Assembly: GCA_002245135.1 (NCBI GenBank)
Contig: NGBS01000602.1
Location: forward strand, 57,958 to 121,957
Reading direction: 5' to 3'
Length of the DNA: 64,000 nucleotides
From: Proteromonas lacertae
Taxonomy: Eukaryota; Sar; Bigyra; Opalinata; Proteromonadidae
Shown here: one piece after another, positions 19,779-59,092 of the stretch
Layout of the letters: the number at the start of each line of letters is the position of its first letter
Numbering within the stretch: the first letter of the stretch is position 1
Notes under the pieces: model-generated
The model's input: the letters and a program-made list of their open reading frames with translations, nothing else
What the model was told of the DNA's origin: nothing
Databases searched by the model: none
Translations under genes and position numbers: made by a program

Positions 19779-21162
19779 ATGTCTACTGCATCAACTTACA
19801 CATATAAGGAAAAACCTAATATATCTCCATATGCTCCACATACATTTGCTGCAGATTATGCTTTAGGTATACTTCAGAAAGATAATGTAAATGAATAGAT
19901 CATGCTAGAAGATCAAGTACATCTCACAAAGAACCAAGTATATTTGTTTATTTAATAATTCAATAGGCGCACAGACTATATATTTAGAGCAAATAAGATT
20001 TCTCACAAACAGGGTGAAAGAACTTGAAAGAGAGAAAGATGTATATAATATTTGATAATAAGTACAATTAATAGGAAATTTCAACTAATACAAAGACCTC
20101 CACAATTAAGGAATATGAAAGAGGTTTTCACGATGGTTATGACCATTTTAAAGGTGATTTAGTGAAAATAAAAAATGCATTTAAACAATCCACAGAGTTG
20201 TCAACTAAACAGAAGGATAAGATTAAGTCATTACAATCTCATCTACATAAAGCACAGTATTTTTGTGTTATTTAACATTTTTAGTAATGAAATAAGACAA
20301 TTAAAAGATTCAAATAACAAAATTCAAACAGAATTAGCATTATGTAAGACAAATAACATATATGAAAGAGATAATAACATAAAATCATTGATGAAACAGA
20401 ATGAAGATTTAAAGAAAGAAATAAGAAGTTTGAAAGATGAGAATGAGAAGAATAATTACTATCTATTGATGGATACTCAAGAAAAAGAATCACAGTCTAT
20501 AAACACAATAAATCAACTACAATCATTATTACAAGATAAAGATGATGAATTACAAAGAAATGATGAAGTTGATATCTTTTTTGTTAATATATATAAATAT
20601 ATTTTATATGTTAATATCCTTAATTTACATTTTACTTAGGAATATGAATAGACAAATAGAAAGTCTAAAAGATCAGAATGATTCATTAATCCAACAAATA
20701 ACGATGGTTCAAAAGCAGACGGAATTAACTGAAAAATACAAAAGTGATTTTGATGATACAAAATATGAAATAAAGCAGAAGAAAGATGAGATTAAACAAA
20801 AGAAGGAGGAAATAAAGAAATTGACAGATGCTTTAATAGATTCTCAAGAGCATTTTGATAAACTACGAAAAGATTTTGAACAGTTACAGCATGAGAATAT
20901 GAACCTAATGAACGAAATAAAGATAATGAGAGAAGATGCTGAAGCAATTAGAGCTAAGATGGAATTATATGAGACTCAGTCAAGTGTAGAAGTAGAAAAA
21001 CAATACAAAATGAAGATGGAACTTCTTAAAAATGATTATGAAATGAAAATAAGAAAAATGGAGAATAAAATTATGAAATTAGAAACTATATTATCAACAC
21101 AAAGTAATAATACATTTGATATGTCATCATCACTACCTTCATCTCCATATAGACTTTATTAA
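19779..21162 (+). CDS. Coiled-coil protein containing a U12-type AT-AC intron
   Basis: The start exon reads MSTASTYTYKEKPNISPYAP. Four GT-AG introns (about 19871-19902, 19937-19965, 20041-20074 and 20259-20286) and one AT-AC intron (20572-20635) give a protein of about 385 residues. Apart from the N-terminal 45 residues it is nearly all heptad coiled coil (EIRQLKDSNNKIQ, KYEIKQKKDEIKQKKEEIKK, RKMENKIMKLETIL), ending in a Ser/Pro tail. It could be a cytoskeletal, centrosomal or Golgi-tether protein; sequence alone does not decide. The heptad pattern continues across the AT-AC junction (LQRNDEVVRNMNRQIESL), supporting that splice. Confidence 0.8.
20572..20635 (+). other. U12-type AT-AC intron (64 nt)
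   Basis: The donor is ATATCTTTTTT, one base from the U12 consensus ATATCCTTT. The branch site is ATCCTTAAT at about 20616-20624, almost the full TTCCTTAAC consensus, 11-12 nt before the terminal AC. The exons join as GTT G|TT AGG AAT ATG. The only GT donors here (GTTGAT, GTTAAT) are all in phase 0, and no AG acceptor gives that phase in the downstream frame, so a GT-AG solution is excluded by phase. Confidence 0.87.
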
Positions 21163-37077: not shown

Positions 37078-39750
37078 TGAGCAATTACAGTAGTATATAT
37101 GCTACTTTAGTTGTAAAGAAGAAAGAATCATTGTTTTCTCCAAAAAACCTTTCAAGAGAAGTTTTTGCAGGAATCTTGTCGTATTTTTCTTCTTCTATTG
37201 ATAATTGTAGAGTTTTAGCAATTGCAATTAATGGCATCGCTTTAGCTCAAGTGTTTTTTAAAGGTGATATGGCACCGTATGCAATATAGTTTATATTCTT
37301 TAGATACATGGTTAGAGGAGTTCAAGCATGTCTTATTGGGCTTTGTATGAGTTAGATTATGTTATTGTGCTTATAGTTATACAGCAGTTTACTGTGATTG
37401 GTTTTAGTAAATATAAAAACTCAGTAGTTGCAGTTTCTATAGAGACAAGTCCATTTATAGTAGAATCATTAAAGAATATATATGAAAAAATGAAAGGTGA
37501 AAGTGATCAAGCCAAATTAGCCACAACTTTAATAGTATTTGCGATGCAAGCATTATTAGCAGGTATAATATGTGCTATTATAAGAATCTTACATATTGGC
37601 ACAATTGTAGACTATATACCCTATCCTGTAAGAAGTGGAGTATTTGCTTCAGTTGGTTATTTCCTTTACATTTACAATTTTGATTTAGCATATGGAGAAA
37701 GTTTCTATTGGGGCTTATTTAAAGATTATAATTTAGTTTATTTCTTTATACCACATATATTAGGAATTGGCTTATTTATATTCACTAAATTTGTTAAAAG
37801 TCCATATGTTCAACCATTATTTATTATAATTGGAATAATTGTGTTTCATATAATAAGATTGATAGGTGGATGGTCAATCAATGAATTTAGAGATAACTTA
37901 TGGTTTGTGCAAGACACTCCAGTAACTCCATTTTACGAATATTATCAACAAATTCGATTTGGTTTAGTAAAATGGGATTTAATTGCAAATGAAATTCCCA
38001 ATATCTTAGTCGGTGTATTGATTGGACCAGTATTAAATGTATGTTTAAATGCAGTGATGTTAGGATATATGTTAAAGAGAAGTATTGATATTAATAAAGA
38101 AATCTTAAGTCATTCAATTGGTTATTGTTTAATTGGATGTTTAGGTGGATATTGCTCTCAAGCTGGAATGTCGATGACAACTTTACATGTATCAGCAGGT
38201 GGTAATACATGGGTATCAAGTGGTGTAGTTGGGTTAATATTATTCTGTATATATTATTATTATTATTATTATTTATAGTGATGTTTGCATTACATTGGTG
38301 TTTGGTGATAATAGGTTATTTACCTCGTCCAATCTTAGCAGCTGTATTTGTGAATGTTGGTTTAGGCATTATTATTAATACATTCATTGAAATATGGTAT
38401 CAGTTAACTAAAATCGAAGTGTTATTGGTTTTAGTGATATTAATATGTAGTGCTACATTAGGATTTGTATATGGTGTAGTAGTTGGTTTAGTCTTGGCAT
38501 TTGTATTATATATTTACACTACAAGTCGTTCTAATAATGTAACTGCTGAGACAGATGCTACGACATTAGGTAGTAATGTAATTAGACACTTGTACCAATC
38601 GGCACAATTAAATAAATTAGGAAAACATATTAGAGTTGTTCAATTAAGTGGATTCTTATTTTTTGCTTCTAGTTATCAATTGACTACTGATATATTAAGT
38701 AGAGTATTGAAGAAAATGAATATTAAAGATGAAAGTGAAAGTATTACTCATATATCCTTTTTTTATTAGATATTTATATATTATTATTATTATTATTATT
38801 ATCTTTAATTTTATTTCTTTTTTTAAGTTATATTAGATTTTACTAGAACGAATAGTATTGATTCAACAGCTTTTATAGCATTTGTTGAATTATGTGAAAA
38901 ATTAACATCATTAGATGTATTTGTTGGTTTTGTGGTACTTAAACAAACAAGAAGAGAAAGAATGGAAAATATGGTAAAAAGATCATCCGCTAAACCAGAT
39001 TTTTACAAATTCTATTTTTCATTAGATAATGCAATATCTGAATTTGAAGATTCTGTTGCTGAAAGGTTTACTGGATTTGTTATTCAAAATCAAATTCCAA
39101 TCTCACCCAGAATAGAAGATACAAAAGCATTACCTAAATCTTCTACTAAGAAAGTAGATATTAATTGGAAGAAACAAACTCCAATCACAAGGTTAAGATA
39201 TTTAATGAAGATGTTAAGTAATTTCAGTGAACATCCTATTTGTCAATCTATTTTATATGCTATATCTGAAGGATATGCGAAATATGTTATTTTAGAAACA
39301 GGACAAGTTTTATATCGTGAAAATCAATTGTCAAATGGTCTATATTTCCTTATCAATGGTAAAACTTCCTCTTATATAGCTGATGATTTGATTATGTCTG
39401 AGGCTACAACTAGAGAAGGAATAAATATTCTAAGAGTGCCAGATAAAGCTGAATATGAAATGAATAAGTTATGGGTTAATAAATATCCTGGTACTTTTAT
39501 AGGATTAATGCCTGAAAGAGGTGTTATAACTTTGAATGAAGAAACATTGTTAGCTGACAAATCTACATTGTTATTACATCTTGATAGATCTTCTTTAAGA
39601 ACAATGGAAGAAATTGTGCCTGATTTAGTCGCCTCATTTTATTTATACGATAGACTTGTCAGGAGAAGGAAATTAAAGTTTTTGAAAAATAGAATTCGTC
39701 AAAGTAGACAAGAAGATGTTTTGATGGACAGTAGAAAGGGAATGTTCTAA
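37078..39750 (+). CDS. SulP/SLC26-type anion transporter with STAS and cyclic-nucleotide-binding-like domains
   Basis: After a polar start (MSNYSSIYATLVVKKKESLF) come about ten membrane segments of SulP type (VFAGILSYFSSSIDNCRVLA, LVNVLIGPVLNVCL-like helices, GCLGGYCSQAGMSMTTLHVS, GYLPRPILAAVFVNVGLGII). A STAS domain follows (VVQLSGFLFFASSYQLTTDI, then ILDFTRTNSIDSTAFIAFVE), then a Crp-type domain (YVILETGQVLYRENQLSNGL, LYFLINGKTSSYI). About 835 residues. The same SulP-STAS-cNMP order is known from fungal vacuolar/plasma-membrane proteins of the YGR125W type. Introns near 37279-37293, 37345-37379 and 38248-38278 are ordinary. The one before the STAS strand (38741/38752 to 38826/38827) is ambiguous and has a U12-like donor. 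Confidence 0.88.
38741..38827 (+). other. Ambiguous intron with U12-like donor motif
   Basis: Two in-frame solutions exist. (a) GT-AG, 38741-38827, donor GTATTA and acceptor AAG, 87 nt, giving SE-IILDF. (b) AT-AA, 38752-38826, donor ATATCCTTTTTT (perfect U12 consensus), branch-like ATCTTTAAT at about 38801-38809, giving ITH-VILDF. AT-AA termini are rare but known among U12 introns; the AAG acceptor and 87-nt length of (a) are unusual for this window. Confidence 0.6.
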
Positions 39751-57612: not shown

Positions 57613-59092
57613 TTAATCATTTTTCTGTCTAACTAAATAATAATCTTTATTATTAACTTTATAATTGATTCTAATACACGGAGAGTAATAATTCATTCTT
57701 CCCAATATGAAATCTCTTAATGCCAAGCCTAATCCAACTGCTGGTACTACTTTCAATGTAGTTACTCCCAAACCGTGATAAAAACCTTTCCAACCAGCTT
57801 CTTTATAAATATATTTCACTAATTTAACGAATTTTGAAGGTATGTCAATTTCTTGATATTGACTTTCTAAAAAGGCTGGATGAGACAATTGCATATTTCT
57901 TGATATTAAACCACAACATAATAACTTAGGAAATGAAGGTTCCCATAATTCAAAGGTTTTATATCTTAATAAATCTTGAAATGATTGTTGAATTGATACA
58001 AACATTCCAACTGATAATAATGAAGGAAACAAACCTTTATACAAGCCTTTAAAACCTTCTTCCATTCTTATAGTCTTAATTGCATTAATCATACCATCAT
58101 AATACATCCTATTTCTGCCTTGTAATGCTAAACGAGATCTAACTAAATCCATTGGATAAGTTATTAATGTGGCAGTTAAACCTGATAATCCACCACACAG
58201 TAATCTGATTGGTAGATTACTTTGACCATCTTTTATACCAAATAATTTCAAATAAATTGCATAACTCCATGTTACACATCCATTAAATGGTATTACTTTT
58301 ATACAATTGGTTAAATTACCTGCATATAATCCTCTTATTCCATCTCTCAATAATATTTCACTAAAAACTGATTTGATTGGTTCTGAACCTGATATTTGTA
58401 CATTTATTCTTATTACATCTAAAGGAGCAGTGATACAACGAGAAATTAACCCAGAAACAGCACCAGCAATAAAAGAATATGAATAAGAAGTTGGTACAAC
58501 AGTTGGAACTCCCATGTCAAAATATCCTTCTAATACATCTCTTATTTTAACAGAATTATTTAAAGAATATAAAGGTATTTTGTAGTAAGTGATTGGAAAT
58601 TTAGTGAAAAATGTTAAAAATTCTTCTTTCGTTAAGAATGTGTTTGAATTCTTTTGAAATGGAAAAATGGTAGTGATTATGTTTCTCAAATCATTATGAG
58701 ATATTGTCGATCCTACTGATTTTAGTAATGAGTATATCTGTGTATCTGATACTACTCCTCTTTTCTTTGCATCTATTTCATCGTAAAGAACTGAAGCAAA
58801 AGATTGACGAATTAATGTTATATACTCATCATAATCTGTTTTTTCAGGAACATCAACTACTCCAATGTCTATTCCAGCAGATTTTAAAGATTCTGCTAAT
58901 TCTTCTTTCGATAAATAACCATCACAATCTTCATCATGTTGTTCAAATATTTGCTCTATTCTTTCATCGGTAGATAAATACAGCCACCATCGTATTCTAA
59001 ATCATATATATATTGCTATACATATATTTTTGTTGATTTGGTCTAAACTTATCTAACCAATTTAAATTTGTATATTTTGCTAGAATTGGCAT
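57613..59092 (-). CDS. EF-hand mitochondrial carrier (ATP-Mg/phosphate carrier-like, SLC25A24 type)
   Basis: Two exons (intron about 59007-59031) give 484 residues, near the usual length. The N-terminal half carries EF-hand-like segments (FEQHDEDCDGYLSKEELAES; LYDEIDAKKRGVVSDTQIYS; SNTFLTKEEFLTFF). The carrier half has repeat 1 FIAGAVSGLISRCITAPLDV with IRINVQ and repeat 2 LCGGLSGLTATLITYPMDLV with RSRLALQ. Repeat 3 (LLCCGLISRNMQLSHPAFLE) lacks the PxD/ExxR signature, but its second helix (GWKGFYHGLGVTTLKVVPAV) is normal. It should sit in the mitochondrial inner membrane and exchange adenine nucleotides for phosphate under calcium control. Confidence 0.87.

Follow-up and report, generated by a model that had tools for sequence, protein, structure and literature searches.

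Introduction

In human cells, 24% of the minor introns are of the AT-AC type and 69% are of the GT-AG type, and the protein CENATAC promotes the splicing of the minor introns with AT-AN ends (PMC8280824). Among the non-canonical terminal pairs of animals and plants, which together account for about 4% of the minor introns, AT-AA is the most frequent (PMC10639083). For the protist Blastocystis ST1, 346 minor introns were reported in an assembly of 16.5 Mb (PMC5608401).

Here we analysed a window of DNA from Proteromonas lacertae, by which we mean the whole stretch of 64,000 nucleotides, in which the frame of a gene is interrupted by 64 bases. Its sequence signals make it very probable that this interruption (20572-20635) is a real minor-type intron. 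It adds a new member to a class already known, the U12-type introns, and by the motif searches described below it would be one of several hundred introns that form a lineage-specific A-type class.

Results

The interrupted gene lies on the forward strand (19779..21162, ATG at 19779, stop codon at 21160-21162) and encodes a coiled-coil protein of 398 amino acids in a model that was built by hand and checked by translation. Four GT-AG introns were placed in this model, with lengths of 32 nt (19867..19898, phase 1), 29 nt (19938..19966, phase 1), 34 nt (20041..20074, phase 0) and 28 nt (20257..20284, phase 2). The fifth, of 64 nt and in phase 1 (20572..20635), was assigned as a minor A-type AT-AC intron from the frames and from the genome-wide pairing of donor and branch signals. 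If unspliced, the upstream frame reaches a stop at 20637-20639, and excision of the 64 bases restores the frame to give the product ...DELQRNDEV|VRNMNRQIESL... of 398 residues. A protein database search returned no relative of this protein at E <= 0.001, which places the 20571/20636 junction beyond a homology test. Elsewhere in the window, on the minus strand (57613-59001), lies a gene for an EF-hand mitochondrial carrier, whose metagenome relatives are 88% (P0001) and 63% (P0002) identical and whose sole named match listed is from Acytostelium (29%).

The letters and coordinates of the intron given by the first-pass annotation were all confirmed, including its length. The donor ATATCTTTTT (20572..20581) fits the U12-type donor form RTATC(C/T)TT and is the most frequent donor form in both sets of introns that we fetched from the genome. 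The branch-site element TCCTTAAT (20617..20624), complementary to the intact GUAAGGAA of U12, is close to TCCTTRAY and ends 11 nt before the 3' end of the intron, which is the terminal AC at 20634..20635.

We searched the draft genome (50,220,264 bases in 1181 contigs) for paired donor and branch motifs, with the reversed pattern as control. The pair ATATCYTT-N20..50-TCCTTRAY gave 89 matches versus 52 in the control over 50.2 Mb, a weak excess by itself, and ATATCYTTTT-N20..50-TCTTTAAY gave 318 versus 7 over the same 50.2 Mb. The latter count indicates that TCTTTAAT is the usual branch element and TCCTTAAT a minority form, so that the branch site of the intron, described in the first-pass annotation as near-perfect, does not deserve this name in its own genome. 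TCTTTAAT can be read as a C-to-T variant, which would retain a G.U pair with the intact U12 sequence. When the list of the 89 TCCTTRAY-pair rows was read by eye, 63 started with ATATCYTTT and ended with TCCTTAAY, about 46 of them distinct. The signals of the class are a donor ATATC(T/C)TTTTT and a branch element TCTTTAAT, less often TCCTTAAT; a T at donor position +11 is found in 60% of set 1 and in 90% of set 2 of the fetched introns (see below).

Since the matches include near-identical copies, we put the distinct introns carrying both signals of either pair (318 matches plus the 63 TCCTTRAY-pair rows, in 50.2 Mb) at a few hundred. Near-identical minor-intron-like stretches occur in one group of seven copies (contigs C70, C119, C120, C512, C713, C1122 and C1123) and in another of five (C302, C352, C751, C809 and C857); these are possibly mobile or duplicated genes that carry a minor intron. 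On the 122-kb contig that holds the window, five candidates with T-rich donors were found, namely the introns of the window at 20572 and 38752 and those at L009 269, L010 8763 and L011 7562, of which the one in L010 is ambiguous. In 120 kb of contig C1066 there was none, which suggests that two minor introns in 64 kb are partly due to local chance. The expectation that this would be a high density was not upheld: minor introns are present in the hundreds, yet beside the 346 in 16.5 Mb of Blastocystis ST1 the density alone is not exceptional and sets no record.

For the GT-type, the pair GTATCYTT...TCCTTRAY gave 104 matches versus 42 in the control, and almost all of the listed rows belonged to a small number of repeats. 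Within this list we noticed a high-copy element with GTATCTTTCACAATTATACCCATTGG...TCCTTAAC, which is present on about 80 or more contigs and looks like repeated coding DNA, and, among the listed rows, a near-identical pair on C619 and C620 with a short T-run. In a loose test on a 242-kb sample, eight A-type sites, five of them with T-rich donors, and no G-type site were obtained. GT-type minor introns thus look rare in this genome, and its minor introns are likely to be exclusively A-type, as far as a genome-wide test of the GT-type with the TCCTTRAY branch only can tell. A count of major introns by joining of open reading frames yielded 588 sites with the real signals versus 774 in the reversed control.

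Three of the four minor snRNAs were found in the genome search above their Rfam cut-offs: U12 with 56.9 bits, U6atac with 81.5 bits and U11 with three matches of 61.7-63.4 bits. The motif CCATAAA stands upstream at -60 (U11), -58 (U12) and -63 (U6atac), and U6atac has in addition a TATA-like stretch near -30, which argues that the three are real genes. U4atac was not found over the genome, either with the Rfam model or with two pairing patterns, the first of which gave no match and the second four versus eight in the control, none of them convincing. CENATAC/CCDC84 is present with two collinear matches. A search for the CHHC finger of U11-48K gave eight matches, and one prokaryotic control genome also matched; the best of them lies within a frame of 427 amino acids that we read as TRM13-like, which does not confirm U11-48K. 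The U12-type AT-AC reading proposed in the first-pass annotation stands as the best one and is backed by U11, U12, U6atac and CENATAC in the genome, with U4atac as the piece that was not found.

The U6atac gene (L002 1501-1615, G000:C1066:116605-116719) differs in the part that pairs with the donor. The box AAAGGA is replaced by AGCCGA, so that, across the donor-pairing stretch, the AUGAAAGGAGAG of the Rfam consensus has become AUGAGCCGAGAG, and two further changes (GU to CG) are located near the 5' end. Complementarity to the donor via the canonical box is absent, which concerns the machinery of the genome and not the signals of intron 20572-20635. U11 retains AAAAAGGG as well as AAAAAGGGC, which is complementary to the T-run of the donor. 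Donors matching the altered box (TATCGG...TCCTTRAY) were not enriched genome-wide with this rarer branch form (14 versus 27 in the control).

Duplex energies for the genome's own donor were -4.1 kcal/mol with its own U6atac, in other registers, and -3.3 kcal/mol with its own U11, and hence they do not show a stronger binding of U11. With human U6atac the same donor gave -4.8 kcal/mol, and the canonical human pair gave -7.1 kcal/mol. Taken by itself, the altered box forms a fold with GGUU at -3.3 kcal/mol, where the human equivalent gives 0. From the retained and the altered letters we infer that it is chiefly U11 that reads the donor past +5, and that U6atac would retain at most the pairs U4-A and C5-G or bind in a shifted register, for which GAGAGA with UCUUUU is a possible candidate.

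The AGCCGA gene was the one match in the draft (1181 contigs), for which the best 46 of 1832 candidates were scored, so we allow for some chance that it represents a pseudogene or results from an assembly error, and that either the assembly or the search missed a canonical copy. We consider this unlikely, since the gene matches the 126-position model at full length with 81.5 bits, ends in a T-run, and has the common upstream element at -63 and the TATA-like stretch near -30; a canonical copy should moreover have outscored it.

The 3' ends of the introns were examined in two sets. Set 1 comprises 40 introns, namely 39 of the 40 fetched TCCTTRAY-pair loci and the window's own 20572-20635; it omits L041 (contig end) as well as C576, C830, C1005:72464 (looked less intron-like), C1155:375648 and C1160:218094. 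Set 2 comprises 21 introns, the first 20 listed of the 318 TCTTTAAY-pair matches and the window's 38752-38826. Both flanking frames were clear for 34 introns of set 1 and for 15 of set 2, together 49 of 61, and the other 12 were set aside.

Of the 34 frame-clear introns of set 1, 29 had AC or AA in frame at a distance of 7-14 nt downstream of the branch, as against 7 and 5 in the two wrong frames. Taken singly, AA was in frame in 20 (wrong frames 4 and 3), AC in 11 (4 and 2) and AG in one (6 and 3). Set 2, searched 7-17 nt past the branch, had an in-frame AC or AA in 14 of 15 introns (wrong frames 6 and 5), a weaker contrast, with AA in 12 (6 and 2), AC in 3 (0 and 3) and AG in one (5 and 1). 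Over both sets and 7-17 nt, AC or AA was in frame in 43 of 49 introns (AA only 29, AC only 11, both 3), compared with 15 in the first wrong frame (11, 3 and 1) and 11 in the second (6, 5 and 0). Six frame-clear introns had neither in frame; five of these also lacked AG and one had AG only. By these counts AA is in excess, and more so than AC, and some single calls are due to chance. Among the hundreds of minor introns of this genome, AA thus seems to be a more frequent end than AC.

Several products spliced with AT-AA ends could be compared with known proteins. Gapless alignments were obtained for L054 to AKR6D1 and Kv beta 2 (135 and 134 residues), for L060 to AKT1 (114 residues) and for L082 to glycine decarboxylase (136 residues), and L052 aligns to TTLL7 with a gapless junction and one gap elsewhere. 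The other minor intron that our analysis supports in the window belongs here as well, since its end is AA and not AC. This intron of 75 nt (38752..38826, forward strand), with the branch TCTTTAAT at 38802-38809, interrupts the STAS domain encoded by a gene that resembles sulfate transporters (SLC26). Its spliced product matches Pfam STAS with 4.3e-10 and gives a gapless alignment to prestin over 66 residues (E 0.002), and with an AG end the frame fails.

The AT-AA ends might still be an artefact, if the true ends were AG or another dinucleotide, or if the junction lay one base further on both sides. A joint shift by one base is invisible to frame tests, and AA is common by chance in AT-rich DNA, as its sole occurrence in 11 and 6 of 49 introns in the wrong frames illustrates. 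In the correct frame, however, AA alone was found in 29 of 49, in-frame AG showed no enrichment (1 versus 6 and 3 of 34; 1 versus 5 and 1 of 15), and the AA-spliced products align to known proteins without a gap. L082 (GGPH|AGFF) and L060 (QY|GAEI) retain their conserved residues, as seen by eye, only with AT-AA. An artefact is accordingly improbable.

Some apparent families of genes were noted among the fetched loci. L027 (AT-AT) and L031 (AT-AA) are paralogues by eye, with the intron at the identical place; in Pfam, L031 had only a sub-threshold C2 match and L027 none. L025 and L056 look like paralogues, with ISV common to both after the intron, and are without an in-frame AC or AA; an AT-AT end at a distance of 8 nt from the branch would be compatible, and L025 is among the introns with unclear frames. 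L028, L032, L058 and L010 (8763, minus strand) are membrane-protein genes, by eye of one family, with a similarly placed minor intron; the one in L010, whose branch is very near its donor, has an ambiguous end.

For ALTERNATIVES at the locus, GT-AG pairs that stay in frame number 46 up to a length of 300 nt, the shortest of 67 nt, and the assertion that every GT-AG alternative was excluded had therefore been made too strongly. AT-AC pairs that keep the frame are also numerous (186 of at most 300 nt), so that AT...AC ends alone are uninformative here. The heptad repeat was said to continue across the join; one core position is common to both sides, and the profile correlation is 0.31 in register versus 0.83 at a shift of four residues, which does not decide the matter, so that this claim was overstated.

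A longer GT-AG major intron could span the break, with 20610-20676 (67 nt) and 20568-20676 (109 nt) as examples among the 46 frame-keeping pairs. None of them comes near the 28-34 nt of the host gene's other four introns, which have GTAT donors, and a full match to GTATNT is seen in none; their donors read GTTAAT, GTTGAT or GTCTAT, their lengths are at least 67 nt, and the perfect donor-branch pair at 20572-20635 would have to be a coincidence. We regard such an intron as very improbable. Two separate genes, with the stop of the first at 20637-20639 and the start ATG of the second at 20644, would be suitably placed as well, but there would be no intergenic space, a coiled coil lies on both sides, and the break coincides with the full set of minor-intron motifs, and this reading too is very improbable. 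With high confidence, the signals mark 20572-20635 as an A-type (AT-AN) intron that would be removed by the minor spliceosome.

Discussion

Both the splicing of intron 20572-20635 and the snRNAs involved are what we infer from its letters and from the snRNA genes. U11 would pair with the donor through C5-G and U6.G and then through its A-run with the T-run, and U12 would pair with the branch element. U6atac, with its altered donor box, would presumably take over from U11, and the intron would end at the AC that follows the branch by 11 nt.

Overall, our data hint at a minor spliceosome that has been re-tuned towards A-type introns and tolerates AA ends, and the signals of this lineage together with its U6atac would represent a new variant of the minor system. 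We propose only tentatively, as a possibility that falls somewhat short of being probable, the complete form of this reading, in which the lineage is essentially A-type only, AT-AA is its commonest class, U11 is the main reader beyond +5 and the U6atac box has been lost without a matching class of donors.

The helix between U6atac and the donor is thought to be needed for minor splicing in human cells. If the re-tuned reading is true, minor splicing works without it. AT-AA minor introns have so far been known as rare exceptions; a genome whose commonest minor introns seem to be of this type would offer a natural experiment on the 3'-end requirements of the minor spliceosome, and would bear equally on CENATAC-dependent AT-AN splicing and on the loss of the U6atac-donor helix. 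In such a lineage, annotation that is confined to GT-AG, GC-AG and AT-AC ends would break many genes. In the open-licence literature, we found no report of a genome with AT-AA as the commonest minor class.

Like the U12-type AT-AC introns of animals and plants, those of P. lacertae start with AT, have a donor and a branch element complementary to U11 and U12, and keep a short distance from the branch to the end. They differ in that the donor is mostly ATATCT and not ATATCC, that the branch is mostly TCTTTAAT, and that AA ends are commoner than AC. Blastocystis is likewise rich in AT starts and short introns, with major introns of about 30 nt (PMC10639083, PMC5608401). In contrast to P. lacertae, 77% of its minor introns are AT-AC (196 of 253) and all four snRNAs have been reported, and the available parts of these two sources make no mention of AA ends as the commonest class in Blastocystis (PMC10639083, PMC5608401). 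Physarum polycephalum resembles P. lacertae as a protist with many minor introns and changed signals, but its minor introns number more than 20,000 (PMC8329584), compared with hundreds in P. lacertae.
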